Source: Actinomycetota bacterium (GTDB taxonomy: Bacteria; Actinomycetota; Actinomycetes; JACCUZ01). Taken from it: DNA of 64,000 nt. Where the stretch lies: positions 62,001 to 126,000 of the forward strand of contig JAVEDI010000038.1 of assembly GCA_030841035.1 (NCBI GenBank), in the 5' to 3' direction. The translations under genes and the position numbers were made by a program. Under the pieces are notes generated by a model, which saw only the letters and a program-made list of their open reading frames with translations, ran no database searches and was not told the DNA's origin. Shown piece after piece: positions 14,951 through 30,133 of this stretch. The first letter of the stretch is position 1. Each line of letters opens with the position of its first letter.

Positions 14951-15382
14951 TCAGCCGGCCGGGCTGCCGTCGCCGACGGCTTGCGCGAGCTGCTCGCGCA
15001 GAACGCTCGGGATGGGGCGCGACGCGTGCGTGGCGGAGTCGAAGTTGACGTAGACGATGCTCGCCGTGGTGAGCAGCACGCCGTCCGAGCGGTGCACCTC
15101 GAAGCCGAGCTGAAAGCTGGACCGTCCCACCCGCAGGCAGTGCACGGCGATCTCGAGCCGGTCGTCGACGGTGGCCGGGCCGTTGAAGTCCGCCTCGACG
15201 TGCACCAGGGACGGAACGAACCCTTCCTGTGCCATCGCGTCGAAGGTCCAGCCCCGGTCACCGAAGAACTCTCCCATCGCGACGTCGAAGAACTCCCAGT
15301 AGCGACCGTTGAACACGATGCCTTGCGCGTCCATCTCGTGGTAGCGCACCTGGTGCCGGTACACAGACGTCCGGGGCGTCAT
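14951..15382 (-). CDS. acyl-CoA thioesterase (hotdog fold, 4HBT family)
   Basis: Hydrolyses a small acyl-CoA. The product is 143 aa, a single hotdog domain with the 4HBT signature VRYHEMDAQGIVFNGRYWEFFDVAMGEFF; the Asp-Ala-Gln-Gly-Ile-Val-Phe-Asn segment carries the catalytic Asp. The start overlaps the stop of the upstream acyl-CoA synthetase gene as ATGA, so it is the last gene of the catabolic cluster. It may recycle CoA from a dead-end thioester of that pathway. It converges on the acyltransferase gene with a 3-bp gap. Confidence 0.88.
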   Translation of the reverse strand: MTPRTSVYRHQVRYHEMDAQGIVFNGRYWEFFDVAMGEFFGDRGWTFDAMAQEGFVPSLVHVEADFNGPATVDDRLEIAVHCLRVGRSSFQLGFEVHRSDGVLLTTASIVYVNFDSATHASRPIPSVLREQLAQAVGDGSPAG

Positions 15383-17487
15383 CGGGTTTCCCGTACAGCC
15401 GGTCGTGGCACCACCACGGCGTCGACCGCGACGACTCCGGTAGGAGTGGCGATGACGGGATTGAGGTCGACGGACTCGAGCAGCCCGGCATGGGCTGTGG
15501 CCAGCTGGTCGAGCCGCTCGATGACCTCGATGACGGCACCGAGGTCCACCGGGTCGGAGCCACGCGCACCCGCCAGCAGCGCATAGCCCCGTAGCTCCCG
15601 CAGCATCTCGGCGGCCTCGCCGTCGCGCAGGCCTGCCGCCCGGATCACGACGTCGTCGAGGATCTCGGTCCAGATCCCACCGAGACCCACCAGGACGAAC
15701 GCACCGAGCTCGGCGTCGTTCTGGACACCTACGATCATCTCGACCCCCGCAGGGACCTGTTCTTGGACGAGCACGGGCCCGCCGCCGGCCACGCGCAGCG
15801 CCGCAGCGCGCACTGCCGCTGCGTCAGCCAGGCCCAGCGCGAGTGCGCCGGCCTCCGTCTTGTGCAGCAGGTGCGGGTCGGCGGACTTGACCGCCACGGG
15901 AAACCCGAGCTTCTCCGCGATCTGCGCGGCGGCGGCGCCGTCTCGCGCGATTTCCGACCGGGCCACCGGGATGCCGAGGGCCGCGACCAGATCGAGGGCC
16001 GGCAGCCCGGAGGTGGCCGTGCCGGCCAATGCCGAGAGTGCTCCGGCGATCTCGGCCAGCGGTATCCGGTGCTCGGTGGCCGGAGACGGGAGCGGCCGGG
16101 AGAAGGTGACGAGCCGCTCCAGGGCACGCAGCCCTTCGTGCAGGCCGGAGAGAACCACCACGTCGCTTTCCAGCGCTCGCTCGACCTGCTCGGCCGGGGC
16201 GGTACCACCCACGGCGTCGAGTACGACGTGCAGCGCGTCCGTCCGGTCGGCGAGCTCCAGCGCGGCGTGCAGCTGCGGCGTGGCCCGGTCCTCGGGTCCC
16301 GTCGGCCCGATGGTGAAGTCGCCGACACTCACGACGATGTCCACCTGCGGGTCCTCGGCCATGGCGGCGACCAGTTCGGGGTAGCGACGTTCGAGATCTT
16401 CGGTGCCCCAGTAGTCGAGGGGGTTGCTCGCCTCGAGGAACTCGGGCAACAGCTCGCGCAGGCGCTGCGAGGCCGCGGGGCCCAACGTGGGGAGCACGAG
16501 ACCGGTGCTCGCGGCGTCGTCGAGCACGAGCTGGATCTGGCCGCCCGAGGCGGTCAGCGCCGCCATGTTCGGGCGCTGCGGTCGGCGCCGGGTCTGCATC
16601 GCGACGGCTGTCTCGAGCAGCTCGTCCAGGGTGTCCACCCGCAGGACGCCGTGCCGGCGGAACCGCGCGTCGACCAGCCGGTCCGGCATGGCAAGCGCTC
16701 CCGAGTGGGCCACCGCCGCGGCACGGGCCGCCTCGGTCCGGCCGGACTTGACGACGATCACCGGCTTGCCGAGCTCGCGAGCCCGGTCGCACTCCCGGAA
16801 GAACCGCTCCGGGTCGCGCACGGTCTCCAGGAAGGCGCAGACCACGCGCGTGTGCGGGTCGTCAACGAAGTAGCCGAGCAGGTCGGCACTGTCCACGACC
16901 GCCTCGTTGCCGCACGAGACGACGTGGCTCCACCGCACGCCGCGCTTGTTGTTGGTGAGCGCCGTCGCGACCGAACCGCTCTGCGCCATGAGTGCCACGG
17001 CGCCGGGCCGGGTCGCCTCGACACGGTCCATGTACAGCGCGTGCGGGTGGTGGAAGTTGATCAGGCCTTGGCAGTTCGGCCCGAGCAGGGCGACGTCCGC
17101 CGCGCGGGCCACCTCGGTGATGCGTGTCTGCAGGGCCTGCCCCTGCGGACCACCGTCAGCGAAGCCGATCGCGAGCACGACGACGCCCTTGACGCCCAGC
17201 GCGGCTGCCTCCTCCACCACCGGCAGAACCCGGTCACGTGTGACGCCCACGAAGATGGCGTCCGGCACGAAGGGCAGGGAGGAGAGGTCAGGTGCGCACG
17301 GGTAGCCGAGCACCTCGTCGTAGCGCGGGTTCACCGCACCGACCGGGCCGGCGAAGCCCATGGCAGCGAAGTTCTCGAGGGCTTGACGACTCCATGGGTT
17401 GCTCGGGCTCGCACCGACGACCGCGACCCCGGCGGGGGCGAACAACCTCTGCAACGACGCTGCCGACGTCGGGACCCGGCTAGGCAC
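15379..17487 (-). CDS. ADP-forming acyl-CoA synthetase (acetate--CoA ligase family)
   Basis: Activates a carboxylic acid to its CoA thioester with ATP giving ADP and phosphate. The product is 702 aa with fused alpha and beta parts. A CoA-binding Rossmann domain (LFAPAGVAVVGASPSN, about residues 14-130) is followed by succinyl-CoA-synthetase-like domains with LLGPNCQGLIN and the phospho-His segment VAHSGALA (His about 261), and a C-terminal ATP-grasp domain (AEKLGFPVAVKSADPHLLHKTEAGALALGL, ending VDLNPVI). GTG start 17487. It overlaps the crotonase gene upstream by 8 bp and the thioesterase downstream by 4 bp. In context it should channel the carbon skeleton released by the cluster hydrolases into CoA metabolism; the acid is not identifiable. 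Confidence 0.9.
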   Translation of the reverse strand: MPSRVPTSAASLQRLFAPAGVAVVGASPSNPWSRQALENFAAMGFAGPVGAVNPRYDEVLGYPCAPDLSSLPFVPDAIFVGVTRDRVLPVVEEAAALGVKGVVVLAIGFADGGPQGQALQTRITEVARAADVALLGPNCQGLINFHHPHALYMDRVEATRPGAVALMAQSGSVATALTNNKRGVRWSHVVSCGNEAVVDSADLLGYFVDDPHTRVVCAFLETVRDPERFFRECDRARELGKPVIVVKSGRTEAARAAAVAHSGALAMPDRLVDARFRRHGVLRVDTLDELLETAVAMQTRRRPQRPNMAALTASGGQIQLVLDDAASTGLVLPTLGPAASQRLRELLPEFLEASNPLDYWGTEDLERRYPELVAAMAEDPQVDIVVSVGDFTIGPTGPEDRATPQLHAALELADRTDALHVVLDAVGGTAPAEQVERALESDVVVLSGLHEGLRALERLVTFSRPLPSPATEHRIPLAEIAGALSALAGTATSGLPALDLVAALGIPVARSEIARDGAAAAQIAEKLGFPVAVKSADPHLLHKTEAGALALGLADAAAVRAAALRVAGGGPVLVQEQVPAGVEMIVGVQNDAELGAFVLVGLGGIWTEILDDVVIRAAGLRDGEAAEMLRELRGYALLAGARGSDPVDLGAVIEVIERLDQLATAHAGLLESVDLNPVIATPTGVVAVDAVVVPRPAVRETR

Positions 17488-18325
17488 GGTCGTCCACCTC
17501 TCGGAACTGCTGGTCCCGCCAGTCCAGGGCCGCGCGAAGTCCCCGCGCGGCCCGGATCTCCTCGAACTGCCGCAGCTCGTCGGTCTCGGAGCCGTCGAGG
17601 ATCGCGACGAGGTTGTCGTGGTGGTTGAGGGCGTTGAGCAGGCCCATGATCTCGTAGGTGCGGTTGATGCCCTCCTTGGTCAGCTCGACCGCGAGCGGGG
17701 AGACCTTGGCGATCAGGCGCGCGTGGTAGTAGGCGCGCCGCATGAGGTCTTCCGGCTCGACGACCTCGTTGACCATGCCGACCTCATAGGCCCGCTGGGC
17801 GTCGATCGTCTTCCCGGTGTACAGCAGCTCCCGGGCGATCTTCATCGGCACGATCCACGGCATGATCAGGGTCGAGCCGGTGGAGAACCGGATCTCCGGC
17901 TCGCCGAGCCTGCAGTCGGAGCTGGCGATCGTCATGTCACACAGCATCGCTATCTCGCAACCGCCACCGAGGCAGTAGCCGTGGACCGCAGCGATGATCG
18001 GCTTGCGGAAGTTCCAGACCCGACGTGAGAACGGCCAGATGGACTCGAGGTGCCGCTTCCACTGCATGACGCTGCCCTGTTCGGGGTCGGAACCCGGCTG
18101 GATGTCGTAGCCGGCCGAGAAGGCGCGCCCTGCACCGCAGAGCACCACGGCGCGGACCTCGTCGTCGGCCTCGAGCCGGTCGAGTGCGTCGATGACCTCG
18201 CGTGCAAGCTGGGCGCTCAGGGCGTTGAGCTTCTCCGGGCGGTTCAGCTTGAGGGTCGCGATCGGGTAGTCGAGCTCGACCACGATCGTCTCGTACTGGT
18301 CGTCCTCCGGCGCCGTGGCGGTCAT
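17480..18325 (-). CDS. enoyl-CoA hydratase/crotonase family protein
   Basis: The product is 281 aa. Crotonase fold with oxyanion segment AFSAGYDIQPG and HGYCLGGGCEIAML. Both equivalent glutamates are present (GGGCE and LGEPE), but the usual IPGAGGTQRL loop is replaced by STGSTLIMPW, so the substrate pocket differs from the classical hydratase at 12514. It could be a hydratase, isomerase or C-C/C-N lyase on a pathway acyl-CoA. ATG 18325 is preceded by GAAGGAAGG. It lies between the amidohydrolase (8 bp gap) and the acyl-CoA synthetase (8 bp overlap). Confidence 0.85.
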   Translation of the reverse strand: MTATAPEDDQYETIVVELDYPIATLKLNRPEKLNALSAQLAREVIDALDRLEADDEVRAVVLCGAGRAFSAGYDIQPGSDPEQGSVMQWKRHLESIWPFSRRVWNFRKPIIAAVHGYCLGGGCEIAMLCDMTIASSDCRLGEPEIRFSTGSTLIMPWIVPMKIARELLYTGKTIDAQRAYEVGMVNEVVEPEDLMRRAYYHARLIAKVSPLAVELTKEGINRTYEIMGLLNALNHHDNLVAILDGSETDELRQFEEIRAARGLRAALDWRDQQFREVDDRA

Positions 18326-18333: not shown

Positions 18334-19998
18334 TTACCTTCCTTCTGCTCGTGAGGGGACTGCTGGGGGTGGCAGCGTTCCGGCGACGACGGCCCCGTCG
18401 ACCAAGGTCGCCGCGGGCGCCAGGCGGGGCAGCTCGGGAGCCGGCACGGTGCGGAGGTCCGTGTCGAAATACAGCAGGTCCGCCAGCTTGCCGGGCTCCA
18501 CGGAGCCGATGAGGTGATCCATGGACAGCACCCCGGCAGGCGAGAGGGTGTGCGCACGCAAGGCCTCGTGGAAGGTGATCCGCTGGTCGGGGCCCACGAC
18601 CAGCCCGTCGGGCGTCGTGCGAGCCATCGCCGACGACAGCGTTGCGAGCGGTCGGAAGTTCGAGACGAACGAGTCACTGGAGAGCACCGTCAGGATCTGA
18701 CGATCCAGCTCCGACCGCAGCGGCTGCAGCCCGTGCACCCGATCACCCAGGGTCCGGCACAGGTCGTCGCCGCTCTCGACCAGGAAGTTGGGCTGGTTGA
18801 CCGGGACGATGCCCAGTGCGGCGATCCGGTCCTGCTGCGCTGCGGTCGGGTAGCCGCAGTGCTCGATGCGGTGCCGGTGCTGCGAGCCGGTTCGAGCGAC
18901 GCCGTGCTCGATGGCCCTGAGGGCGTACTCGATGCCGAGGTCACCCTGGGCGTGGATGCCTACCTGCCACCCCTCCAGCATCGCCTCCCCGACGAGGTCC
19001 CTCAGCTGCTCGGGCTGCCAGAACAGCAGTCCCTTGGTGAGCGAGCCCTCGGCATAGCCGTCCCGGAACAGGGCCGTGCCGCTGGTGAGCGCTCCGTCGC
19101 AGTAGAACTTCATGGCGCCGATGCGCAACCGCTCGTCGCCGAACGGTCCCGTCATGCCGGCGTCGCGCAGTGCCGCGAGGTTGTTGGACAGGGGCATCGC
19201 CACGACCCGCAGCCGCAACGCGTCCTCCCGTCGCGCGCCGAGATAGGTCGACAGCTCCCGGCGGGTCACCTGCGGATCGCACACCGTGGTGATGCCCGCG
19301 GCGAGGTAGGCGTCCATGCCGACCTCCAGCGCGTGTCGCAGCTCCTGGGGGGAGGCATCGAAGTGGAAGTTGGGCCCGTGGCAGCCGATGTCGACCGCAC
19401 GTGGGAAGACGTGGTCCAGCGCGGCGTCCACGCAGTAGCCGGTGGGCTCCCCAGCCGCGTCACGGGCGAAGTAGCCGCCGTCGGGGTCGCGTCGCACCGC
19501 ATCTCCGGCCAGGCGCAGCGCCACCGAGTTGACCACCGCGCTGTGGCCCGACTTGTGGAACACGATGACCGGGTGGTCGCTGCTCACCGCATCGAGGTCG
19601 GCTGCGCAGGGCAGCCGCTGCTGGGGGTACTTCGCGAAGTCCATCCCGTGCCCCCGCACCCATGACCCCGGTGGCTGCGCGAGGGTCGCCTCTCCCACTG
19701 CGGCGACGAGGTCGGTCATGCTGCGCACGCTTGGGAAGCCCGCGTCGACCCCGACCATCGCCTCGCCGGTCGCGAGCAGGTGGTTGTGGGGGTCCACGAA
19801 GCCTGGCACCAGGCAGCCGCCGGAGAGCTCGACGACCGACGGTGCCGCGCCCACCAGTCGAGCGAGGACCTCGGCTCGGGTTCCGACGGCGCGGATGCGG
19901 CCCTCGGCGATCGCCACCGTGTCTCCGGCAACGGCCTCGGTGTGCGGGGAGAGAACAGCGGCACCGGTCAGCACGAGCGTTCCCAGGCCGTCGCGCAA
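18334..19998 (-). CDS. YtcJ-type amidohydrolase (amidohydrolase family 3)
   Basis: Metal-dependent amidohydrolase; relatives include N-substituted formamide deformylase and imidazolone-type hydrolases. The product is about 554 aa. The N-terminal beta segment and HxH metal motif GFVDPHNHLL are followed by the bridging-lysine region RIGAMKFYCDGALTSGTALF, GIHAQGDLGIEYALRAIE, HRIEHCGY and metal-Asp region TVLSSDSFVSN, and a C-terminal SVEPGKLADLLYFD. The start is uncertain: TTG 19998 or GTG 19974. The longer frame upstream overlaps the deacetylase gene and is rejected. It lies in the catabolic cluster between crotonase and CE4-type genes; the likely role is cleavage of an amide or formamide intermediate (inference). 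Confidence 0.85.
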   Translation of the reverse strand: MRDGLGTLVLTGAAVLSPHTEAVAGDTVAIAEGRIRAVGTRAEVLARLVGAAPSVVELSGGCLVPGFVDPHNHLLATGEAMVGVDAGFPSVRSMTDLVAAVGEATLAQPPGSWVRGHGMDFAKYPQQRLPCAADLDAVSSDHPVIVFHKSGHSAVVNSVALRLAGDAVRRDPDGGYFARDAAGEPTGYCVDAALDHVFPRAVDIGCHGPNFHFDASPQELRHALEVGMDAYLAAGITTVCDPQVTRRELSTYLGARREDALRLRVVAMPLSNNLAALRDAGMTGPFGDERLRIGAMKFYCDGALTSGTALFRDGYAEGSLTKGLLFWQPEQLRDLVGEAMLEGWQVGIHAQGDLGIEYALRAIEHGVARTGSQHRHRIEHCGYPTAAQQDRIAALGIVPVNQPNFLVESGDDLCRTLGDRVHGLQPLRSELDRQILTVLSSDSFVSNFRPLATLSSAMARTTPDGLVVGPDQRITFHEALRAHTLSPAGVLSMDHLIGSVEPGKLADLLYFDTDLRTVPAPELPRLAPAATLVDGAVVAGTLPPPAVPSRAEGR

Positions 19999-20003: not shown

Positions 20004-20837
20004 TCAGCCCTCCCCGTGCAGCACCCGCTGCGCAAGCTCCCCCATGGTGGGGAACCAGACGCTCCCCAGAGCCTCCGCAGCGGCGACGACCTCGTCCAGC
20101 AGTCCCCGCCGCGACGGCCGGCCGACGAGCTGCGGGTGCAGTGTGAACACGGTCGTGCCTCCCAGCTCGTGGATCGCTCGCAGCTCGGCCGTCCACATCT
20201 CGGCGATCTGGCTGTTCGCGAGGAACTGGCGGTGGTTGGGAGGACTGCTCGCGAAGAGCAGGTGCGGCCCGTCGTCGAGCATCCAGTGCACCGGCAGCTC
20301 GGCCACGCGGCCCTGTTCCGACTCGACCACGTAGGGGTGCACGGAGTCCATGTAGTTCGACGAGAACGTGCAGCCGATCTCCGCCAGCACGTCGCGGGTC
20401 TGCTCGGTCACGTCGTAGAGCGGGGCACGATAGCCACGGACCGCTGATCCGCTGATGTCCTCGAGCTTCTCCTTGAGCGTGCGCAGGTGTGCGAGCTCAC
20501 CGTCACGCAACCGGTCCCGCAGCGGGTTGTGGTCGTCGCCGTGCATGGCGATCTCGTGCCGCTGCCCAACGATGCGTGCGATCGCGCCGGGGTTCGCCTC
20601 CGCCACGTCGGTCGGGACGAAGAAGGTCGTCCGGATCCCGTGCCGGTCAAGGGAGTCGAGCACGAGGTCCAGCCCCTGCCCGACGTCGTACGAGCCCGAT
20701 GACAGCACCGCCGGTCGGTCGGCGTTGCGGGCGTCCTTCGACGTCCACATCGTGTGCCCGTCGAGGTCGAACGTCATGCAGACGGCGCTGCGCTGCCCCG
20801 CGGGGAACGTTCCCGCCGGCGCGTCTCCGAGCGTCAT
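20004..20837 (-). CDS. polysaccharide-deacetylase-fold (CE4/NodB) hydrolase, imidase/PuuE-like
   Basis: The product is 277 aa without a signal peptide, so it is probably cytosolic, which argues against cell-wall deacetylation. NodB motifs: VCMTFDLDGHTMW (metal Asp), EIAMHGDDHNPL (metal His pair), VRGYRAPLYDVTEQTRDVL and FTLHPQLVGRPSR. The GSYDVGQGLDLVLDSLDRHGIRTTFF block resembles the subgroup containing allantoinase PuuE and cyclic imidases, from memory. ATG 20837 has AGGAAGGG upstream and lies 1 nt after the M20 gene stop. Given its amidohydrolase and monooxygenase neighbours, I infer opening of a cyclic amide or imide rather than deacetylation of sugar. Not proven. Confidence 0.75.
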   Translation of the reverse strand: MTLGDAPAGTFPAGQRSAVCMTFDLDGHTMWTSKDARNADRPAVLSSGSYDVGQGLDLVLDSLDRHGIRTTFFVPTDVAEANPGAIARIVGQRHEIAMHGDDHNPLRDRLRDGELAHLRTLKEKLEDISGSAVRGYRAPLYDVTEQTRDVLAEIGCTFSSNYMDSVHPYVVESEQGRVAELPVHWMLDDGPHLLFASSPPNHRQFLANSQIAEMWTAELRAIHELGGTTVFTLHPQLVGRPSRRGLLDEVVAAAEALGSVWFPTMGELAQRVLHGEG

Positions 20838-20838
20838 G

Positions 20839-22062
20839 TCATTGCCCTTCCTGCAGATATGCACGCGCCGAGTCCATGAGGATGTCGACCAGGGTCTCGA
20901 GCTCGCCGAGCTGCGCGTACTCGCTCTCGCCGCCCATCGTCGCCGGGTTCGGGCCGATGACGCAGGCGGGAATCCCGGCGTAGCGCCAGAGCCGCGCGTC
21001 GGTGCAGCCGAGACCGGTGGACAGCGGTGGGTGTTGGCCGGTGTGCCTGGTGACCGCATCGACGACCGCCGAGACGATCGCCGAGTCTCCGTCGGTCTGG
21101 TTGGCGGGCCCTCGTCCCAGCACCTCCACCGTGGCTGCGGCCCGCTCCGCCTCGGCGGCGACCAACGCGACGATCTCCTCGACCTCGATGGTCTTGGGGA
21201 TGCGGAAGTCGAGGGTCAGCTCGCAGCTGCTCGGCTGGAGGTTGACGGCGTTGCCGCCGTGCACCGTGCCGACGTTCAGCGAGACCGACCGGGTGATGCC
21301 GGCGGCGCCGGCGCCCAGGTGCCTGTCCACGGCCTGGTCGGTGGCGACGTCGGGTGACGGTGCGCCGGCCACGCGAGCGTTGAGCTCACCCACCAGGTCC
21401 TGGACCCGCCGCACCAGCGCGGCCATCCGCAGGATGGCGCCCTCGGTCTGGCTCGGGTACGCCGAGTGCAGGCTCTCGCCCTGGAAGCGCAGCTTGACCC
21501 AGAGGAAACCGCGTTCGGCCACCCGTACCAGGCCGAGCGAGGACGGCTCGGTGCTGACCAGCGCGTCGCCGAGCAGCCCCGGCTCACGGGTGAGGAGGCT
21601 GCGGGCGCCGAGCGGACCGAACGTCTCCTCGTCGCACACGAGGGTGAGCGTCAGGGACCCCGGCAGGTCACCGTGCTCGTGCAGCAGCCGCGCAGCGACG
21701 AGGAACGCCGCCACACCGCCCTTCATGTCGACCGCGCCCCGCCCGTAGACGCGGCCGTGCTCGCTGCGGGCGGCAGGGAACTTCCCCGTGGCGGGGAACG
21801 TGTCGAGGTGCCCGTTCCAGACCAGGTGACGCCCTCGTGCGGAACGGGCGACCTCGATCACCAGGTTGCGACGCCTCGCTGCCGGTCGATGAACGACACA
21901 CGACAGGCCGGCCGCCTCGCAATAGCGCAGGACCACCTCTGCCACCTCGGTGACGTCACCGGGTGGGTTCGGGCTCGGCGCGGCGAGCAGCTGGAGCAGC
22001 AGAGACTCCAGCTCAGCTCCCACGCCCCCGGCCGCAGGCTCCTCGCGGAGGCTTGCCGACAC
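20839..22062 (-). CDS. M20 family zinc amidohydrolase/peptidase (ArgE/DapE/CPG2-like)
   Basis: Di-zinc hydrolase of N-acyl or N-carbamoyl amino acids and similar amides. The product is 407 aa. Metal ligand motifs in order: HLVWNGHLDTFPA, VYGRGAVDMKGG, LVCDEETFGPLG (catalytic Glu-Glu), DALVSTEPS. A dimerisation domain with SLNVGTVHGGNAVNLQPSSCELTLDFR follows, then the C-terminal GLGCTDARLWRYAGIPACVIGP. GTG 22062 with GAGGGG upstream. It lies 11 bp after the monooxygenase gene and 1 bp before the CE4-type gene. Probable role: hydrolysis of a linear amide produced after ring opening (inference from context). Confidence 0.85.
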   Translation of the reverse strand: MSASLREEPAAGGVGAELESLLLQLLAAPSPNPPGDVTEVAEVVLRYCEAAGLSCVVHRPAARRRNLVIEVARSARGRHLVWNGHLDTFPATGKFPAARSEHGRVYGRGAVDMKGGVAAFLVAARLLHEHGDLPGSLTLTLVCDEETFGPLGARSLLTREPGLLGDALVSTEPSSLGLVRVAERGFLWVKLRFQGESLHSAYPSQTEGAILRMAALVRRVQDLVGELNARVAGAPSPDVATDQAVDRHLGAGAAGITRSVSLNVGTVHGGNAVNLQPSSCELTLDFRIPKTIEVEEIVALVAAEAERAAATVEVLGRGPANQTDGDSAIVSAVVDAVTRHTGQHPPLSTGLGCTDARLWRYAGIPACVIGPNPATMGGESEYAQLGELETLVDILMDSARAYLQEGQ

Positions 22063-22073: not shown

Positions 22074-23513
22074 TCAGCGGTTCTGCGGCGCGATGTCCAC
22101 GCCGAGGCGGTCGAGGACGAAGTCACGCCACGGCTGTCGGTAGTCGGAGTTGTAGATCCTCGCCCGCATCGCCGACGGCGGGGTGGCGTTGACGTTCTCG
22201 AAGAGTGCGACGCGCTGTGCGTTCGCGCTGCAGGTGAGGTCCCAGACGAAGTTGAACACGCGGTTCTTCGCCTCGGCGCTGACCCCGGTCCCGGGCAGGA
22301 ACTCCCGCAGCATCTCGCCCACGGCACCGTCCTCGAACTGCTTCTGGGTGAACCGGCTGATGAGGCCCTGCCCCGAGATCTCCCGCATGAGCTGCAGGAC
22401 GCGGGGGTAGTTCTCGACCGAGTGCAGCCGTCCGGCCGTGACGAAGCGCTCCGCCGGCACGAGCACGCCGTTGGCCGGCTGGGCGGTGTCCTCCGCCGCC
22501 AGCACGAACGCCTTCAACGCCGTCGCGTACGCCGCGATCTCGGAGATGGAGTCCCGCACCTGCGGGATGTTCTCGGTGCCCAGCACGTCGACGATGACCT
22601 GCGCGGTGCCGGCGAAGATCTCGGCCTTGTAGGCCAGCCGGGCCAGGATGTGCCACAGCGCCAGCGCACCGAGCTCGTGGTAGAGGCCGAGCATCTGCGG
22701 GTCGCGGAACGAGAAGACGTGCTCGTTCGGGATGAAGACCCGGTCGAACACCAGCATCGAGTCCGGCTCCTCGCCGCGACTGTCCAGGGCGTGGTCGTCG
22801 AGGTCCGTGCCACGGTTGACGACGGGCTCCCGCGCGACCAGCGTCAGGTTCGGGGCGTTGATCGGCACGTAGCAGAACATGTTGGCGTCGGGGTCGGCAC
22901 CGGGCGTGAGCAACGTGACGACGGTGCCCACGTGGGCCTGCACGGCGACTGAGGCGCATGGCTTGGCGCCGTAGACGACCAGGCCGTCCTTGCGCTTCTC
23001 CACGCTGCGCAGGCGACCGGGCTTCTGCGCGGTCGGCACCGAGCGGTCGGACTGCACGTCGGCCACGATGTCGGCGCTCATGGCGTTGTTGTCGCGGCCC
23101 CAGCGGATGAAGTCATCGATGTTGCTGGCGCCCTCAGGGCTGGCGTTGGCGATGCGGTCGGCAACGGAGAGCAGGCCGAGCGCGTTGAAGGAGCCGTAGT
23201 CCGGGGGACGGCCGAAGACGCCCAGCGTGTGGTACGTCGACATGCGGGCCAGCTCCCGGCGCGACACGAGGTCGTCCTTGGTCCGCGGGACCTGCCACGC
23301 CCGGCTCGCCAGCTCACCGGTCTCCTCGTCCTTGTAGGCCGCGACGTCGCGCAGGCCCGGCTCGTGCTGCATGTCGTAGAGCGCCGCGATGTTCTCGACG
23401 GCGTCCTTGAACTGCGGGTGGGTCGTCACGTCGTCGACGTGGCTCCCGTCGGCAGCCAGGACGACACGGCCGTCCCGCAGGCTCTGCTTGTACTCTTCAC
23501 CGGTCTTGAGCAT
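22074..23513 (-). CDS. FADH2-dependent monooxygenase, 4-hydroxyphenylacetate 3-monooxygenase (HpaB) family
   Basis: Oxygenase of a two-component flavin system using FADH2 from a partner reductase. The product is 479 aa with acyl-CoA-dehydrogenase-like fold; family segments are MLKTGEEYKQSLRDGR (N-terminus), YHTLGVFGRPPDYGSFNALGL, DNNAMSADIVADVQSDRS, ENYPRVLQLMREISGQGLI and KNRVFNFVWDLTCSANAQRVALFENVNA. ATG 23513 follows a GAGGG; a TTG at 23522 would overlap the reductase gene. The family includes hydroxylases of phenols and chlorophenols and, by annotation, of heterocycles. No homoprotocatechuate ring-cleavage genes are nearby, so true 4-hydroxyphenylacetate breakdown is unlikely. The amidohydrolase-rich context suggests a nitrogenous substrate. 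Confidence 0.87.
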   Translation of the reverse strand: MLKTGEEYKQSLRDGRVVLAADGSHVDDVTTHPQFKDAVENIAALYDMQHEPGLRDVAAYKDEETGELASRAWQVPRTKDDLVSRRELARMSTYHTLGVFGRPPDYGSFNALGLLSVADRIANASPEGASNIDDFIRWGRDNNAMSADIVADVQSDRSVPTAQKPGRLRSVEKRKDGLVVYGAKPCASVAVQAHVGTVVTLLTPGADPDANMFCYVPINAPNLTLVAREPVVNRGTDLDDHALDSRGEEPDSMLVFDRVFIPNEHVFSFRDPQMLGLYHELGALALWHILARLAYKAEIFAGTAQVIVDVLGTENIPQVRDSISEIAAYATALKAFVLAAEDTAQPANGVLVPAERFVTAGRLHSVENYPRVLQLMREISGQGLISRFTQKQFEDGAVGEMLREFLPGTGVSAEAKNRVFNFVWDLTCSANAQRVALFENVNATPPSAMRARIYNSDYRQPWRDFVLDRLGVDIAPQNR

Positions 23514-23518: not shown

Positions 23519-24103
23519 TCAACCTTCGAGTGGGCTGTCGGAGAGCGAATAGAAGTTGCGGCGCGCGTACACCAGCGGCTGCTTGCTGTCATCGGCGGCG
23601 CGCACGCCGGCGACAGTTCCGAACAGGACGTCGTGGTCGCCGATCGTGACGATCTGCGAGACCCAGCAGTCGAAGTGCGCGATCGCGCCGTGCACCGACG
23701 GCGCCGCCGGGGCGGTCAGCCCGTCGTGCGGGTCCCACCGACGGTCGGTCACCGGCAGCGGGACACCACCCTCGGTCCACCACTCGCCCTCCGGGCTGAA
23801 GTGCTCCAGGAACTTCGGAGCACCCGGTGCCGCGGCGGCACGGGCGATGTGTACCTGGTCGGTGGCCAGCACCGAGATGCCCATCCGGCCCTGCAGCTTG
23901 GCGGCCTGGACAAGCGCCGTGTGCGAGAACAGGCAGACCGACACCGTGGGCGGGTCGAGAGCGACCGCGCTGAAGCTGGACGCGGTCACACCCCAGGGCC
24001 GGCCGCCGACGTAGGCGGTCACCACGACCACCGACGCCGGCATCCCGCCCAGAACCGCCCGCATGGTGCTGGCGAGATCTTCTGCAGTGTGGCTGTAACT
24101 CAT
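23519..24103 (-). CDS. flavin reductase (HpaC-like) of the two-component monooxygenase
   Basis: NAD(P)H:flavin oxidoreductase supplying reduced flavin to the HpaB-type oxygenase. The product is 194 aa with a split-barrel FMN-binding domain: MRAVLGGMPASVVVVTAYVGGRPWGVTASSFSAVALDPPTVSVCLF, GRMGISVLATDQ and FDCWVSQIVTIGDHDVLFGTV. ATG 24103 has no Shine-Dalgarno and an AT-rich upstream sequence, consistent with a leaderless transcript from the promoter described just upstream. It is the first gene of the hpaC-hpaB-M20-CE4-amidohydrolase-crotonase-synthetase-thioesterase run. Confidence 0.88.
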   Translation of the reverse strand: MSYSHTAEDLASTMRAVLGGMPASVVVVTAYVGGRPWGVTASSFSAVALDPPTVSVCLFSHTALVQAAKLQGRMGISVLATDQVHIARAAAAPGAPKFLEHFSPEGEWWTEGGVPLPVTDRRWDPHDGLTAPAAPSVHGAIAHFDCWVSQIVTIGDHDVLFGTVAGVRAADDSKQPLVYARRNFYSLSDSPLEG

Positions 24104-24373: not shown

Positions 24374-25474
24374 CTACTTGTCGGGGCGGATCAACCATGC
24401 GTTGCGCGCTGAGAATCGAAGGGCCACGATCTGCCCGACCTCCGGACGGTGTCGCAGGGCATCGCCGCTGAGCCGGACCGTGACGGTCCCGCCGGACTGG
24501 GTCGCGACGATGACGCGCTCCTCGGAGCCGAGATACACCACCTCGCGCACCGTGGCCTTCCAGTCGTCGACGGCGTCGGCGCTGTCCGAGATGAGCACGT
24601 CCTCGGGACGGAACATCAGGCAGTGCTGCCCCTCGGTGACGCCCTCCGGGGGCGTCCACCCGTCCAGGTGGACGGGCCCGTCCTTCGCCTCGAGCACCCA
24701 GCGGCCGTCCACCCGGCGCAGGGCACCGTCGAGCAGGTTGCTGTCGCCCAGGAACTCCGCGACGAACCGCGACTGCGGACGGCGGTAGAGCTCCGCCGGT
24801 GTGCCGATCTGCTGGATGCCGCCGCGGTCGAAGACGACGACCGTGTCCGAGAGTGCCATCGCCTCCTCCTGGTCATGGGTGACGAACAGGAAGGTGATGC
24901 CGAGCTCGCGGTGCACCCGCTTGATCTCCAGCTGCAGGCGCTGGCGCAGCTTCTTGTCCAACGCACCGAGCGGCTCGTCCATCAGCAGGATCGGCGGGTC
25001 GAAGACCAGCGCGCGGGTCAGGGCGACCCGTTGCTGTTGGCCTCCGGACAGCTCGCGCGGGCGTCGTTTCTCGAACCCCGTGAGGTTCACCATCTCCAGC
25101 GCGGCCGCGACCTTGCTGCGGATGACGTCCTTGGGCACCTTGCGCTCCACAAGGGGGAACGCCACGTTGTCCCAGACCGTCATGTGCGGGAACAGCGCGT
25201 AGTTCTGGAAGACCATGCCCAGGTTCCGCTTGTGGGGCGGCAGATCCGCGATGTCGCGACCGTTGATCAGGATGCGGCCGGAGCTGGGCGTGATGAAACC
25301 GGCGATCATGTTCAGAGTCGTCGTCTTGCCCGAGCCGCTGGGACCGAGGAAGGTGACGAACTCGCCCTTGCGCACCTTGAGATCGATCGCCTCGACCGCC
25401 GGTGTGTCGGTGCCGGCGTACTGCTTGCAGATCCTCTGCAGCTCCAGCACGTCATCGGGATCGTGATCCACCAT
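24374..25474 (-). CDS. potA: ABC transporter ATPase (PotA-type)
   Basis: Energises import by the PotBCD-like system encoded upstream. The product is 366 aa. Walker A GPSGSGKTT (about residue 44), Q-loop FQNYALFPHMTVWDN, signature LSGGQQQR, Walker B ILLMDEPLGALD, H-loop VTHDQEEAMALSD, then a TOBE-type C-terminal domain (CLMFRPEDVLISD). The start overlaps the permease stop by one base (TAATG). Polyamine/opine/organic-amine type by family; the actual solute is set by the binding protein and is probably the pathway substrate. Confidence 0.92.
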   Translation of the reverse strand: MVDHDPDDVLELQRICKQYAGTDTPAVEAIDLKVRKGEFVTFLGPSGSGKTTTLNMIAGFITPSSGRILINGRDIADLPPHKRNLGMVFQNYALFPHMTVWDNVAFPLVERKVPKDVIRSKVAAALEMVNLTGFEKRRPRELSGGQQQRVALTRALVFDPPILLMDEPLGALDKKLRQRLQLEIKRVHRELGITFLFVTHDQEEAMALSDTVVVFDRGGIQQIGTPAELYRRPQSRFVAEFLGDSNLLDGALRRVDGRWVLEAKDGPVHLDGWTPPEGVTEGQHCLMFRPEDVLISDSADAVDDWKATVREVVYLGSEERVIVATQSGGTVTVRLSGDALRHRPEVGQIVALRFSARNAWLIRPDK

Positions 25475-26280
25475 TAGCGCTTCGACCTTCCCTCGGCCTT
25501 GGACGAGAACAAGAACTTGGTGCTGACCAGGATCAGCACGGTGCTGACGATCAGGATCAGCGTGGACGCTGCGGCAATCGTCGGGTTGATGTCACGCGTG
25601 ACGCTCGAGTACATCTCCACGGGCAGCGTGCGCAGCTGAGGGTTCGCGATGAACAACGAGACGACCACCTCGTCGAACGACGTCACGAAGGCGAACAGGC
25701 CGCCGGCGAGGACGCCCGGCGCGATGAGTGGCAGCGTGATGCGACGGAAGACCCGTACGGGGCTGGCTCCGAGCACCGTCGCCGCGCGTTCCAGCTGGCG
25801 GTCCATGATTCGCAGCGAGCTGGACACCGTGATGATGACGTAGGGCACGGCCAGCACCGTGTGGGCGGCGACGAAGCCGGTCGGCGTGCCGACCAGGCCC
25901 CACTTGAGGAAGATGGCGTAGGTCCCGATGCCGAGTACCACGACCGGGACGATCAGTGGCGCGATGCCGATCATCTCGAGGATGTTCCGTCCCCGGAAGC
26001 GACCGCGCACGATGGCGAAGGACGCGAGCGTGCCGAGCACCACCGAGAGGAGCATCACCTGGATCGCGATGCTGATCGACGACCGGAGGGCGTCGAGCCA
26101 CAACGGGTTCTCGAAGAACTCGCGGTACCACCGCAGCGAGTAGCCGGTCGGCGGGAAGGCGAACGAACGCTGGTCGCTGAGGCTCATCGGGATGACGACG
26201 AGCGGTGGCGCCGCCATCCACACGGCGACGAGTGCCCCGATCAGGTAGAGCCACCGCGGGCGGCGTGTCTCAGTTTTCAC
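25474..26280 (-). CDS. potC: ABC transporter permease (PotC-type)
   Basis: Inner-membrane permease. The product is 268 aa with about six predicted membrane segments (LYLIGALVAVWMAAPPLVVI, SISIAIQVMLLSVVLGTLASFAI, MIGIAPLIVPVVVLGIGTYAIFL, VLAVPYVIITV, LIAPGVLAGGLFAFVTSF, STLILIVSTVLILVS) and the EAA-like cytoplasmic loop ERAATVLGASPVRVFRRITLPLI that docks on the ATPase. GTG 26280 overlaps the preceding permease gene by 11 bp. Confidence 0.92.
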   Translation of the reverse strand: MKTETRRPRWLYLIGALVAVWMAAPPLVVIPMSLSDQRSFAFPPTGYSLRWYREFFENPLWLDALRSSISIAIQVMLLSVVLGTLASFAIVRGRFRGRNILEMIGIAPLIVPVVVLGIGTYAIFLKWGLVGTPTGFVAAHTVLAVPYVIITVSSSLRIMDRQLERAATVLGASPVRVFRRITLPLIAPGVLAGGLFAFVTSFDEVVVSLFIANPQLRTLPVEMYSSVTRDINPTIAAASTLILIVSTVLILVSTKFLFSSKAEGRSKR

Positions 26281-27184
26281 CGGACTCCACTCCTCCGAAG
26301 GCCCGCTGGACCTTCACGAACCGGCTGGCGACCACGATGCAGCCCAGCGTCAAGAGGGCGAGGACCACGGCCATCGCCCCACCGCTGGCCCAGTCGAGCC
26401 GCTCCGACACCTGGCGCACGATGAGCTGGGACATCATCGAGTTCTGCGGGGAGCCCAGGATGACGGGGGTGATGTAGAAGCCGAGGGCAAGGATGAACAC
26501 CAGCACGCTGCCGGCGAAGAGACCGGGGAGACTCTGGGGGAAGTAGGCACGCCAGAAGGCGCGGCGAGGGGTCGCACCCAGCGACTGAGCCGCCAACAGG
26601 TCGGACCGGTCGATCTTCTGCAGGTTGTTGTAGAGCGGCAGCACCATGAACGGCAGCAGGATCTGGGTCATGGCGATGAGTACGCCGTTGGTGGTGCGGA
26701 TGAGCTCCAAGCCGCCGAGACCGATCGCGTTGAGCGCCGACTTCAGCGGACCGGTGTCCTGCAGCAGCACGAGCCACGCGTAGGTACGCACCATGAGGCT
26801 GGTCCAGAAGGGCAGCAGCACGAGCACGAGCAGGATGCGTCGTACCCGAGGTGTCGAGAGCGTCATCAGGTAGGCGTAGGGATAGGCGAACAGCGCGCAG
26901 ATCACCGTGCACAGGGCCGCGACGACGAAGGTCCGGAGCAGGATCTTGCGATATGCCGGCGTCTCGAGGAAGCTCACGTAGCTGTCCAGGCTCAGCGAGC
27001 CGCTGCTGTCGAAGAACGACCGCCGGACGAGCTCGAGACCGGGGATCGCGAAGAAGACCACGAGAAGCACGAGCAGGGGCACCGCGAGATGCAGCCCCTT
27101 GGGCCGCCAGCGCACCAGCGTGCGACGCGACACCACGGCGTTGCGGTCGCTCGGGTGCTCGTCGGTCTCGATCATCGGCCTCAT
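26270..27184 (-). CDS. potB: ABC transporter permease (PotB-type)
   Basis: Inner-membrane permease partner of the PotC-type subunit. The product is 304 aa: a short charged N-terminus, then the first membrane segment HLAVPLLVLLVVFFAIPGLELV, five further hydrophobic segments, and the EAA-like loop DLLAAQSLGATPRRAFWRAYFP. ATG 27184 overlaps the stop of the upstream flavin-reductase gene as ATGA. The longer upstream frame runs inside that gene and is rejected. Order in transcription: binding protein, flavin reductase, potB, potC, potA. Confidence 0.92.
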   Translation of the reverse strand: MRPMIETDEHPSDRNAVVSRRTLVRWRPKGLHLAVPLLVLLVVFFAIPGLELVRRSFFDSSGSLSLDSYVSFLETPAYRKILLRTFVVAALCTVICALFAYPYAYLMTLSTPRVRRILLVLVLLPFWTSLMVRTYAWLVLLQDTGPLKSALNAIGLGGLELIRTTNGVLIAMTQILLPFMVLPLYNNLQKIDRSDLLAAQSLGATPRRAFWRAYFPQSLPGLFAGSVLVFILALGFYITPVILGSPQNSMMSQLIVRQVSERLDWASGGAMAVVLALLTLGCIVVASRFVKVQRAFGGVESGEN

Positions 27185-27813
27185 GAGTCGGCGCTCCCGA
27201 GGAGCGGTTCGAGGCCGCGGGCCCCGTTGACGCTGAAGATGTGCCGCGTGTCGACGTACTTCGTGGCCACAAGCCGGCCGAGCGGCCGGTATGCCTGGTA
27301 GTCCACGTGCATCCGGGCGTTCATGATGGCGTCGCTGATGACCGCGTGGGTGACCCGACCGACGACCCACCACTCGCTCGCACCCATGGGCATGATCTGG
27401 ACGAGCCGGCACTCCAGCGACGCGGGCGCCGCGGCGACCCTCGGCACCCGCACCGACGTGCTGTCGGCGAGCTCGACTCCCAGGAGCTGCGCCTCGCTGT
27501 GCCCCGGCGGGAACTCGGCGCTGGATCGGTCCACCGTCTCGGCGAAGTCGACGGTGCAGAGGTTCACGACGAACTCGCCGGTGGCCTCGATCGCCGCCAG
27601 CGTGTCCTTGCGGCGGCCGTCCTCGTGGTTGCTGATCCCGAGACCGATGTGGCATTCGACCGTGGCCATGACCTGGAAGAAGCTGTACGGCGCAAGGTTC
27701 ACCGAGCCCGCCGCATCGACCGACGTGACCCAGGCGATGGGGCGGGGGACCACCAGGCCGGCCATGACCTTGTAGCGCTCGCGCTCGGTCAGCCTCGCCA
27801 GCTCAACATTCAC
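27181..27813 (-). CDS. flavin reductase-like split-barrel FMN protein (DIM6/NTAB type)
   Basis: The product is 210 aa. Family segments are RYKVMAGLVVPRPIAWVTSVDAAGSVNLAPYSFFQV, GISNHEDGRRKDTLAAIEATGEFVVNLC and a C-terminal domain of flavoredoxin type. GTG 27813 follows AAAGGA at an 8-nt spacing; the upstream in-frame ATG at 27927 would place the start beyond a strong hairpin and lacks a ribosome site. It is the second flavin reductase of the region and differs from the HpaC-like one. It sits inside the importer operon, with an ATGA overlap to potB. It may supply reduced flavin or be an FMN-dependent enzyme acting on the imported compound. Confidence 0.82.
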   Translation of the reverse strand: MNVELARLTERERYKVMAGLVVPRPIAWVTSVDAAGSVNLAPYSFFQVMATVECHIGLGISNHEDGRRKDTLAAIEATGEFVVNLCTVDFAETVDRSSAEFPPGHSEAQLLGVELADSTSVRVPRVAAAPASLECRLVQIMPMGASEWWVVGRVTHAVISDAIMNARMHVDYQAYRPLGRLVATKYVDTRHIFSVNGARGLEPLLGSADS

Positions 27814-27860
27814 GCGATCGTCCTTTCGCCGGAGGGCGAGTCGGCTGCCGTCGTACGGGA

Positions 27861-27937
27861 GGTGCGGTCGGATGGCGAGGATGGTCACCATCCGACCGCA
27901 CCGTGCCGTGGTCGACAGGGTTGTCATGCGTCCTGTC
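27861..27937 (-). promoter_or_regulatory. tandem hairpins between binding-protein gene and flavin reductase gene
   Basis: A perfect 15-bp inverted repeat has arms 27861-27875 and 27888-27902 around a 12-nt loop. A smaller 6-bp one (GACAGG/CCTGTC) has arms 27914-27919 and 27932-27937. Both lie just 3' of the binding-protein stop and 5' of the next gene. There is no T-run, so they are likelier to attenuate transcription or protect the upstream mRNA, raising binding protein over membrane subunits. The large hairpin could also be an operator. Confidence 0.6.
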
Positions 27938-27947: not shown

Positions 27948-29030
27948 TCAGCCGGCGGCCCACTTGGTCCAGTCAGCGCTGACCGCGTCGAAGTTCTTCG
28001 CCCACCACTCCTGGTCGAGGAACCGGCCCTGCGACAGGTTTTCCGGCAGCGTCGGCAGGAACTTCTCCGCGGTGCTGTCCAGGTTGGGCTTCGCGTCGCT
28101 GTTCACCGCGCCATAGGTGTACTTCTCGATGAAGGCGTTCTGCGACGCGGCGGTCGTGGCCTGGCGGATGAGCTTGATGCCCTCCTCGATGTTCTTCGAG
28201 CCCTTGGGGATGGCCAGCGAGTCCACCAGCATCAGGTGGTCCTTCCAGACCGGCTCGTAGGGAGCCCCGGCCCGGACCGCGTCGAGCGCACGACCGCTCC
28301 ACGCGATGCTCATCGCGACCTCCTTGCTCTGCATCTGCTGCACCTGCTGGGCGCCGGTGTCGAAGAACGCGATGTCCTTGCGGATCGTGCCGAGCTTCTT
28401 CAGCGCGGCGGGCACGTCCAGCGGGTAGACGTCATCGAGAGCCACGCCGTTGGCCAGCTGCGCCACCTCGAGCGCACCACCCGGTGCGTAGTTCCAGACG
28501 CCGCGCTTGCCGGGGTACTTCTTGGTGTCGAAGAAGTCGTCCCATGACGTCGGAGGGTTGTCCTTGAACTTCGAGCTGTCGTAGACCAGGACGTAGGACA
28601 GGATGTCGAACGGGATCCCGCAGTCCGACACGGCCTCCGGCGGCAGCTTCGAGGTGTCGACCTTGTCCTTGATCTTCTCCAGCAGCGTGCCGCAGTTCGC
28701 GATCGCCCAGAACGGCTCGAGCGTGACGACGTCCCAGGCGGTGTTCCCGGACTCGACCTGGGCGCGCAGCTTCGCATAGTCCGTCGGCCCGTCGCTGAGG
28801 ATCTTGACGTTGTTCTCCTGGCCCCAAGGCTTGACGATCGTCGCTTCCTGGGCCTCTTGGTAGCCGCCGCCCCACGAGGCGAACGTCAGCTCCTTGCTTG
28901 CTGTGCTGCCCGTGCTGCTGCCGCTGCCCTCGTCCTTCGAGCCGGAACCGGTCCCGGCTCCGCAGCCGGCGATCGCCAGCGCTGCCGCCGTCGCCGCCCC
29001 GACCAGCACAAGACTTCGTGCTCTACGCAT
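27948..29030 (-). CDS. potD: ABC transporter substrate-binding lipoprotein (PotD/SBP_bac type)
   Basis: Captures the solute outside the membrane and delivers it to PotBC. The product is 360 aa with a signal peptide and lipobox LAIAGC (lipidated Cys about 23), a Ser/Gly-rich linker, and then ELTFASWGGGYQEAQEATIVKPW, typical of type 2 periplasmic binding proteins of the polyamine/amine group. ATG 29030 is preceded by GGAGGAAACAC, a strong ribosome site. It is flanked by hairpins on both sides. Ligand not inferable from sequence; by context it is probably the compound degraded by the cluster. Confidence 0.9.
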   Translation of the reverse strand: MRRARSLVLVGAATAAALAIAGCGAGTGSGSKDEGSGSSTGSTASKELTFASWGGGYQEAQEATIVKPWGQENNVKILSDGPTDYAKLRAQVESGNTAWDVVTLEPFWAIANCGTLLEKIKDKVDTSKLPPEAVSDCGIPFDILSYVLVYDSSKFKDNPPTSWDDFFDTKKYPGKRGVWNYAPGGALEVAQLANGVALDDVYPLDVPAALKKLGTIRKDIAFFDTGAQQVQQMQSKEVAMSIAWSGRALDAVRAGAPYEPVWKDHLMLVDSLAIPKGSKNIEEGIKLIRQATTAASQNAFIEKYTYGAVNSDAKPNLDSTAEKFLPTLPENLSQGRFLDQEWWAKNFDAVSADWTKWAAG

Positions 29031-29074
29031 GTGTTTCCTCCAGGTACGTGGTTACTGCAGTGGGGTGGTTCATC

Positions 29075-29100
29075 GCTGGGCAGCCACGCGGCCGCCCAGC
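29075..29100 (-). promoter_or_regulatory. hairpin upstream of the binding-protein gene
   Basis: Arms GCTGGGC (29075-29081) and GCCCAGC (29094-29100), with an inner GCC/GGC pair after one mismatch around an ACGC loop. It lies in the 107-bp gap between the ATC-hydrolase-like gene and the binding-protein gene. There is no T-run. It could stabilise the binding-protein mRNA 5' end or act as partial terminator. Confidence 0.45.
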
Positions 29101-29137
29101 ACGCTCGTGCGGCCCGGGCGAGCAGCGGCCGCCGATC

Positions 29138-30133
29138 TCACACTCCGGCCCCCTGGGCAATGCTGAACCGGAACTCGCACGTCGCATCGCCGCGCGACTG
29201 CAGCTCGCCCCACCGGACCTCGATGTCCTGGCGGTAGGCCTTGAACTGCGAGGTGTGGAACTCGTGGTCGTAGATGCGCCCGTAGCGCAGACCGTCGAGG
29301 TCGTGCCACGACGCGACGAACGGGCAGAACGTGCAGTCCTGGGACCACTCTTGATCGGTCAGGACCCCGTCGTCGCGGTACTGCCAGACGTTGGTGTTGC
29401 CGCCCGAGTCGTAGAGCTCGATCATGTTGACGAGGTCGAGCGACAGACCGCTGCTGAGATGGCTCAGCCGCATCGCTTCCCCACGCTCCGCGCCGAAGCC
29501 GCGCATGGCCACGCGGTACATCTCCTCGCCGTCGGAGCCGAACGCGGTCTCGGCTTCGCGGCCCAGGAAGACCATCAGCGCACCACGGTTCTCGCTCGTG
29601 GCAGCCAGCAGCCGTTGCCCTGCCTCTCCCTCGAGGGGGACGCCAGGGCGCGCGGCGTCCTGCGAGTCGCCCGGCGACCCGATCGAGACGCGGAGCGTCG
29701 TACCCTCCACGTCCACGGTGACCGCGTCGCCGAAGCCGGCTGCCGTGGCAAGCTCACGGGCCAGGGCGCCGAAGTGCACGCGGGCGAACGGCAGGACGTC
29801 GTGGCCCACGTAGTGGCTCAGCTGCGGGCTGGTCGTCACGCGCATCTGCAGGCCGGACTCGGTGACCGCGAGCTCACCCCACCCCTGTGGGTTCAGCGCG
29901 AGCAGCTCCGCAGTGCCCCAGGACTCGACCATCGACACGAGTCCGCCGGTGCTGCGGGCGAGAGCGGCGGACGCGCGCCAGGCGTAGTAGCGGGACAGGG
30001 CCCGCTCTACGGCGGCCAGGCCGGCCGCGCCGCGGGCCTGCGTGTACGCGAGGCCGGCGTGGCGCACGATGCGGGCTTCGTGCCCCATCGTGGTCACCAG
30101 GGAGGAGAACAGGTCGCTCTCGCCGTGGGTCAT
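29138..30133 (-). CDS. ATC hydrolase-like protein (L-2-amino-thiazoline-4-carboxylate hydrolase family)
   Basis: The product is 331 aa. The C-terminal third carries the family-like pattern CTFCPFVASW, YDHEFHTSQFKAYRQDIEV and the ending RGDATCEFRF, reminiscent of ATC hydrolase domains (typical end GxxCCDFRF). The N-terminal and middle parts (a VTVDVEGTTLRVSIGSPG beta region) are not recognised, and the protein is longer than the usual single domain. ATG 30133 has a strong AGGAGG upstream. It is the first gene of the importer transcription unit. The family opens a thiazoline ring; a C-N or C-S ring-opening role on the pathway substrate is an inference from fold and position. Confidence 0.6.
   Translation of the reverse strand: MTHGESDLFSSLVTTMGHEARIVRHAGLAYTQARGAAGLAAVERALSRYYAWRASAALARSTGGLVSMVESWGTAELLALNPQGWGELAVTESGLQMRVTTSPQLSHYVGHDVLPFARVHFGALARELATAAGFGDAVTVDVEGTTLRVSIGSPGDSQDAARPGVPLEGEAGQRLLAATSENRGALMVFLGREAETAFGSDGEEMYRVAMRGFGAERGEAMRLSHLSSGLSLDLVNMIELYDSGGNTNVWQYRDDGVLTDQEWSQDCTFCPFVASWHDLDGLRYGRIYDHEFHTSQFKAYRQDIEVRWGELQSRGDATCEFRFSIAQGAGV

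Follow-up and report, generated by a model that had tools for sequence, protein, structure and literature searches.

The Rut pathway breaks down uracil with a flavin oxygenase and its reductase, amide hydrolysis, a RidA-type enamine deaminase, and dedicated uptake; its oxygenase, RutA, is of the luciferase type. The route from 2,5-dihydroxypyridine to fumarate is expected to be encoded with alpha/beta hydrolase, isochorismatase, and Asp/Glu racemase-family genes. In TtHpaB, an oxygenase of the HpaBC type, Arg100, Tyr104, and His142 hold the hydroxyl group of the phenol, from which His142 takes the proton (PMC10537072), and His290 is the catalytic base in the chlorophenol and nitrophenol enzymes represented by HadA (PMC8342789). 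The kpi 4-hydroxypyridine cluster of Arthrobacter IN13 encodes KpiA, a FAD_binding_3 enzyme, and KpiB, an alpha/beta hydrolase (PMC7356986). Here we analyze a gene cluster around an HpaB-like oxygenase in a 64,000-nucleotide (nt) stretch of contig JAVEDI010000038.1 (the window, to which coordinates refer unless a locus is named). It comes from the 3.95-Mb genome of an Actinomycetota bacterium whose order is sparsely sampled; eight genomes of the order were examined. The cluster is a real, co-inherited catabolic unit, and our verdict is that it is most likely a new form of oxygenase-led N-heterocycle degradation.

In outline, the cluster parallels the logic of the Rut pathway. Its oxygenase is an HpaB and not a luciferase-type RutA, which was sought in the cluster and not elsewhere in the genome, and it has a CE4 hydrolase, an M20 protein, and an ABC importer. 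Its RidA protein carries a motif different from that of RutC, and a relative in Peribacillus glennii (locus L014) reaches 51 bits where the RutC cut-off is 169. With HpaBC systems (TtHpaB, structure 2yyg) the locus shares the two-domain oxygenase family, a separate flavin reductase, and Arg100/Tyr104; it differs by an Asp for His142, a sub-equivalog score, and C-N hydrolases instead of a catechol dioxygenase, which was not seen beside it. The 2,5-dihydroxypyridine (maleamate) clusters, such as that of Peribacillus L006, have in common with it a sister-clade oxygenase without His142, a flavin reductase, and amide hydrolases, but they carry Leu/Glu for the Tyr/Asp of the window's clade, a separate NicX-type dioxygenase, and no CE4, M20, or RidA. 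The kpi cluster likewise acts on an N-heterocycle with a flavin monooxygenase, a protein of the amidohydrolase superfamily, and a deformylase-like hydrolase, and the accessible part of that source reports no HpaB, CE4, M20, or ABC importer (PMC7356986). Identity with the kpi cluster or with the skatole cluster was ruled out, the enzyme families being different. Plasmid p1 of Aminobacter niigataensis (L003) shares a run of HpaB (46% identical), CE4, an M20 with the same Met (see below), flavin reductases, and an ABC importer; there the importer is of the polar amino-acid type, and no Amidohydro_3, ATC-like, or CoA genes were found. A search of the open-access text found no published study of the p1 cluster.

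Scanning 84,980 genomes with an HpaB alignment gave 77 loci. The ten-gene order ATC-like, PotD, PotB, PotC, PotA, HpaC, HpaB, M20, CE4, Amidohydro_3 is kept in Sphaerimonospora mesophila (L010) and Nonomuraea cavernae (L011), at 61–84% identity. These two species belong to another order, so the grouping of the ten genes is not due to chance. A PucR regulator and a C45 amidase flank the cluster in both species, as in the window. The idea of a single pathway, put forward in a sequence-only reading of the window, thus passed a co-conservation check for 10 of the 14 genes it had grouped. The cluster is rare, occurring in 2 of the order's 8 genomes, in 1 of 396 sampled from the phylum, and in 2 of 251 sampled Streptosporangiaceae genomes, where no copies were found beyond the two already known. 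Its patchy occurrence makes spread by horizontal transfer plausible; the higher identity of HpaB (82–84%) than of GlgE (67%) is not proof.

The same reading had described 14 same-strand genes at 14951–30133. All 14 are present on the minus strand, most gaps are a few bases or overlaps, and both positions are exact outer gene ends. Pfam bears out the families (4HBT, CoA ligase, ECH_1, Amidohydro_3, CE4, M20, HpaB, two Flavin_Reduct, SBP_bac_8, and PF14196); potA, potB, and potC were called by sequence and by synteny with L008, L010, L011, and L013, not by the Pfam scan. The gene content was listed correctly, running from 30133 down to 14951, and we corrected the place of the first flavin reductase on that list (27181–27927), which sits between potD and potB. 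The end at 30133 was set too short: the functional neighborhood runs on to 37125, taking in PucR, Amidohydro_3, M24, RidA, and C45 amidase genes. The features are as follows, L009 being a genome of the same genus as the host.

14951–15382, minus: 4HBT/YbgC-like acyl-CoA thioesterase (Pfam 4HBT_2, 3e-14); 4-nt overlap with the ligase gene; elsewhere only in L009.
15379–17487, minus: ADP-forming acyl-CoA synthetase (ACD type), 702 amino acids; Succ_CoA_lig, ATP-grasp_5, CoA_binding_2.
17480–18325, minus: crotonase/enoyl-CoA hydratase family (ECH_1, 8e-47); 8-nt overlap with the ligase gene; 93% in L009.
18334–19998, minus: amidohydrolase of the conserved core (Amidohydro_3, 2e-82); 67–68% at the same place in L010/L011.
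20004–20837, minus: CE4 polysaccharide-deacetylase-superfamily hydrolase (Polysacc_deac_1, 8e-15); 70% in L010/L011; closest solved structure 3rxz.
20839–22062, minus: M20 family protein of a cluster-specific type (Peptidase_M20), Met376 for a metal-ligand His.
22074–23513, minus: HpaB-like group D flavin monooxygenase, oxygenase component (HpaB_N and HpaB domains); R102, Y106, and D148 by alignment with 2yyg.
23519–24103, minus: HpaC-like flavin reductase, the HpaB partner (Flavin_Reduct, 3.5e-28); 65–66% in L010/L011, directly before HpaB.
24374–25474, minus: potA-type ABC ATPase; 71–73% in L010/L011.
25474–26280, minus: potC-type permease; 77–79% in L010/L011.
26270–27175, minus: potB-type permease (start inferred); 78–80% in L010/L011.
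27181–27927, minus: second flavin reductase-fold protein, inside the transporter operon (Flavin_Reduct, 7e-20; start may be 27813).
27948–29030, minus: solute-binding protein of the GABA (gamma-aminobutyric acid)/opine type (SBP_bac_8); phmmer to 9d57/6dgv/4eq7 and pocket comparison.
29138–30133, minus: PF14196 (ATC-hydrolase-like) protein, 33 bits against a cut-off of 28; 64–65% in L010/L011.
30437–32002, minus: PucR-family regulator (PucR and HTH_30); 43–44% in L010/L011, adjoining the ATC-like gene.
32094–33731, plus: second Amidohydro_3 protein (2e-102); 33–36% relatives in the L009–L011 and L016 clusters.
33728–34936, plus: M24 (creatinase/prolidase-like) hydrolase (start inferred); Peptidase_M24 and Creatinase_N on the open reading frame 33020–34936.
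34947–35984, plus: RidA-type protein with two Pfam-detected domains (Ribonuc_L-PSP, two stretches) and an HWDW motif (start inferred).
35977–37125, minus: C45 autoproteolytic acyltransferase/amidase (NF040521); 48% relatives beside the amidohydrolase in L010/L011.

The ten genes thus make up a conserved core; the ligase, crotonase, and thioesterase genes form a tail found only in the host's genus, and the flavin reductase gene at 27181–27927 is a variable insert. The insert is missing from that place in L010 and L011 and has a 37% relative in the L003 and L018 clusters. The tail adjoins the cluster only in L009; the ligase is 84% identical there, and its best relatives in the two Streptosporangiaceae genomes reach 35%. 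CoA activation and beta-oxidation-like steps had been proposed as part of the pathway. With the three genes confined to one genus, they are no conserved part of it, and CoA activation was ruled out of the core. The tail might even be a separate operon that lies by chance downstream of the ten-gene unit, making two adjacent pathways, and its absence beside the cluster in L010 and L011 is what this would predict. We consider it rather unlikely: the crotonase gene starts 8 nt past the amidohydrolase gene, the three CoA genes overlap one another, and this arrangement is kept in the same-genus genome.

In a tree of HpaB proteins, a Tyr/Asp clade that includes the window's protein is separated from a Leu/Glu clade (Shimodaira–Hasegawa-like approximate likelihood ratio test, SH-aLRT, 96 and 90, from a quick search without bootstrap), the names giving the residues at positions 104 and 142 of TtHpaB. 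HpaB of the Tyr/Asp clade thus keeps Arg100 and Tyr104 and has Asp for His142. The 27 loci of the Tyr/Asp clade come from Actinomycetota, Pseudomonadota, Bacillota, and Acidobacteriota and encode CE4 (13 loci), PF04199 cyclase (8), M20 (13), M20D (9), RidA (14), and flavin reductase (20); CE4 or cyclase is found in 21. A 2,5-dihydroxypyridine-dioxygenase-like (NicX-type) gene accompanies 54 of the 56 Leu/Glu loci and none of the 27 Tyr/Asp loci, whereas CE4, cyclase, M20, M20D, and RidA are absent from all 56 Leu/Glu loci. The family searches behind these counts were seeded with sequences from some of the compared loci. In the Peribacillus locus L006, alpha/beta hydrolase, isochorismatase, and Asp/Glu racemase-family genes form one run, which fits the 2,5-dihydroxypyridine-to-fumarate route and supports the dioxygenase call in the Leu/Glu clade.

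CE4 is exchanged for the PF04199 cyclase, an unrelated protein, between Tyr/Asp loci that otherwise share the same set of RidA, flavin reductase, M20D, and NCS1 permease genes (L014 versus L019). We therefore argue that CE4 does the cyclase's job, hydrolysis of an amide-type bond. In other bacteria this HpaB clade keeps company with nucleobase-type (NCS1) permeases. N-heterocycles had been suggested as the likely substrate class, and both the dioxygenase-like gene of the sister clade and the RidA, cyclase, and NCS1 partners support this. The proposal of one catabolic unit, in which an oxidative step on a nitrogenous compound is followed by C-N hydrolysis, is supported too, its unity by co-conservation.

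Three further observations concern these clades. L014 (1838–13201) holds two RidA-CE4-HpaB sets with an NCS1 permease and an alanine-dehydrogenase-like gene between them. L032 and L033 (about 10000–16500; Acidimicrobiaceae/Actinomycetota) combine a Leu/Glu HpaB, a dioxygenase-like gene, and a protein related to the second flavin reductase of the window. In the window, 37237–37857 (plus strand) encodes an XRE-cupin regulator, 30–37% relatives of which adjoin HpaB-cyclase clusters of Rhodococcus, Gordonia, Mycolicibacterium, and others.

The window's HpaB has both HpaB_N and HpaB domains, and its closest solved relatives hydroxylate phenols. Alignment with 2yyg places R102 and Y106 at Arg100 and Tyr104 of TtHpaB, both kept, and D148 at His142. 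Among its homologues Arg100 is kept and position 142 is Asp or Glu, with His in none of about 93 alignable proteins. The base of HadA/TcpA-type enzymes is missing as well, HadA His290 aligning with a Leu. Could the cluster nonetheless degrade a phenolic aromatic acid in the manner of classical HpaBC, with the hydrolases stripping amide-linked side groups? The clear fold family, the retained Arg and Tyr, and the adjoining HpaC-like reductase are what one would expect. The loss of both candidate bases argues against it, as do a score of 247 bits against the 480-bit cut-off of the 4-hydroxyphenylacetate (4HPA) hydroxylase equivalog (TIGR02309), the failure to find a catechol ring-cleavage dioxygenase among the genes scanned near HpaB, and partners that are C-N hydrolases and RidA. 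We regard this explanation as improbable.

The hydrolases had been read by family name, and these names did not survive: the M20 protein lacks a metal ligand, CE4 falls far under equivalog cut-offs, and the ATC label comes from a weak Pfam match. A literal reading as allantoinase, desuccinylase, and ATC hydrolase was rejected once motifs and score cut-offs had been checked. All eight M20 proteins of HpaB clusters have lost the last metal-binding His (window, L009, L010, L011, L003, L018, L016, and L024), with Met in TMG or GMG in its place, and 15 of 15 other alignable M20 proteins from three of these genomes keep it; the remaining metal motifs appear intact. The window's protein, with Met376, therefore falls short of the five metal ligands of ArgE/DapE, and it scores 152 bits against a subfamily cut-off of 218. 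Its weak PDB matches include the M20-fold 5-nitroanthranilate aminohydrolase, a mononuclear enzyme that acts on an aromatic amine; we take this as a lead only. Metal motifs were also compared among the CE4 proteins of the clusters; the window's CE4 has D26/H99/H103 and scores 37 bits against 425 for the curated PuuE allantoinase. The ATC-like protein belongs to PF14196 by score. Sequence and fold searches found no solved relative: its model (mean predicted local distance difference test, pLDDT, 78, from three sequences) gave nothing significant, with weak TRAPP/Bet3-like matches only, and the 396 genomes of the phylum sample held no match beyond the host. The HWDW motif of the window's RidA is common to RidAs of HpaB clusters in Bacilli, Hyphomicrobium, Solirubrobacterales, and Leucobacter, and is not in the host's other readable RidA paralogues except one, at a second locus (L097).

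What does the importer carry? It had been called PotABCD-type; the label does not mean polyamines here, since its binding protein proved to be of the GABA/opine kind, closest to GABA sensors and agropine binders (9d57/6dgv/4eq7). The accessible part of a GABA-sensor study names W9, T13, F100, F102 (Tyr mutant in the sensor), W202, R205, D228, and Y264 as pocket residues and assigns D228 to the ligand amino group (PMC12999171). W9, W202, R205, D228, and Y264 are kept in the binding proteins of the window, L010, L011, and L013, and F100 is changed to Asp or Glu; in the window's own numbering these are W53, W244, R247, D270, and Y306, with the extra acid D142. W202 and D228 are not kept in binding proteins of the Leu/Glu clade. 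Polyamine import was ruled out by this comparison, the pocket Arg and Asp being kept. In our own reading Arg205 would hold the ligand carboxylate, and the simplest prediction from the pocket is that the ligand has a carboxylate, a cationic nitrogen, and a further donor.

An alternative is a cluster for amino-acid, opine, or polyamine use that has an accessory oxygenase and degrades no ring. The kinship of the binding protein with GABA and agropine binders would fit, as would an agmatinase-family neighbor in three of the clusters and a methylmalonate-semialdehyde dehydrogenase nearby. Yet HpaB is the element by which the loci were found, and its clade lies with nucleobase-type permeases elsewhere; the unit itself has no aminotransferase/dehydrogenase set typical of GABA or opine use. 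This explanation seems to us very unlikely. An imidazole-type acid handled in a Hut-like manner has a small chance, slightly better than that, and would be a special case of N-heterocycle degradation: HpaB would yield an imidazolone, an amidohydrolase would open it, and an arginase-family or M20 protein would finish. Two amidohydrolases at the locus, the arginase-family gene in three related clusters, and a pocket with two acids and one arginine suit this route. It leaves CE4 and RidA without a place, however, and the stretch scanned showed neither urocanase nor histidine genes; moreover, the arginase-family protein passes the agmatinase model and not that of formimidoylglutamase and is not in the window's cluster. 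As a separate observation, L098 (host contig 116, 594–3960) brings together a weak PF04199-type cyclase match, an NCS1 permease, and an agmatinase-family gene whose product is 66% identical to the agmatinase inside the L009 cluster.

On balance we favor, with modest confidence, a regulated catabolic unit that would take up a zwitterionic N-heterocyclic acid and open its ring by oxidation. From the observed gene content, synteny, partner exchange, and active-site substitutions we infer every reaction, their order, and the substrate class, as follows. The GABA-type binding protein and PotBCA would import the acid. HpaB, with reduced flavin from HpaC, would oxygenate the ring and cause or prepare its opening to an N-acyl enamine or imide. 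CE4, or the PF04199 cyclase in other bacteria, would then hydrolyze the N-acyl or imide bond; the altered M20 and the amidohydrolases may release further C-N fragments, and RidA may take off the enamine/imine nitrogen. In the host genus only, the carbon skeleton would be handled further by the ADP-forming CoA ligase, which would activate the acid, the crotonase, and the thioesterase.

Several points weigh against this proposal. The open-access literature yielded no experimentally characterized member of the window's HpaB clade, so the substrate class rests on neighbors and residues. The loci are related and their counts not independent; the contrast between the clades carries more weight than any p-value. 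CE4 and cyclase are both missing from six of the 27 Tyr/Asp loci, of which at least two sit on short contigs. The identity of the dioxygenase in the Leu/Glu clade comes from the GenBank annotation of L005 and gene context, and NCBIfam gives it no name. An NCS1 permease is lacking in the window's cluster, whose RidA is divergent (85 bits versus about 190–290 in other clusters) and encoded on the opposite strand. Finally, agmatinase-family and second amidohydrolase genes lie between potA and HpaC in L009–L011 and not in the window; even close relatives thus differ in the pathway.

The host has a second N-heterocycle-type cluster, L097 (contig 46, 3277–13464), with a di-iron oxygenase in the place of HpaB. 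It encodes a MerR-cupin regulator, two Phenol_Hydrox subunits (one with YHS), NuoE/F-like proteins, an NCS1 permease, a PF04199 cyclase, an HWDW RidA, and an M20. A di-iron enzyme with YHS-bearing relatives makes N-oxides of pyridines, pyrazines, and pyrimidines (PMC8313251); the L097 enzyme may or may not be close to it. Back in the window, a CoA-acylating methylmalonate-semialdehyde dehydrogenase (703 bits, above cut-off) adjoins a second PucR regulator (37990–39969, minus, and 39589–41061, plus); the pair may belong to the same physiology as the cluster or be separate. GlgB, maltokinase, GlgE, and glycogen phosphorylase at 178–12520 make an ordinary GlgE alpha-glucan cluster next door.

More tentatively, the cluster may exemplify a widespread, undescribed oxidative route for N-heterocyclic acids, defined by an HpaB with an acidic residue for the phenol-deprotonating His, by exchangeable oxygenases (HpaB or di-iron) and hydrolases (CE4 or cyclase), and by an M20 short of one metal ligand, whose reaction would differ from that of its peptidase/deacylase relatives because of that loss. 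If so, many genes labeled 4-hydroxyphenylacetate hydroxylase, polysaccharide deacetylase, or succinyl-diaminopimelate desuccinylase would carry the wrong name and belong to N-heterocycle degradation. The pairs Tyr/Asp or Leu/Glu in HpaB, TMG in M20, and HWDW in RidA would then be marks by which to find such clusters in any genome and sort them by two chemistries, and would offer direct targets in the search for the compounds that they consume in soil and water.

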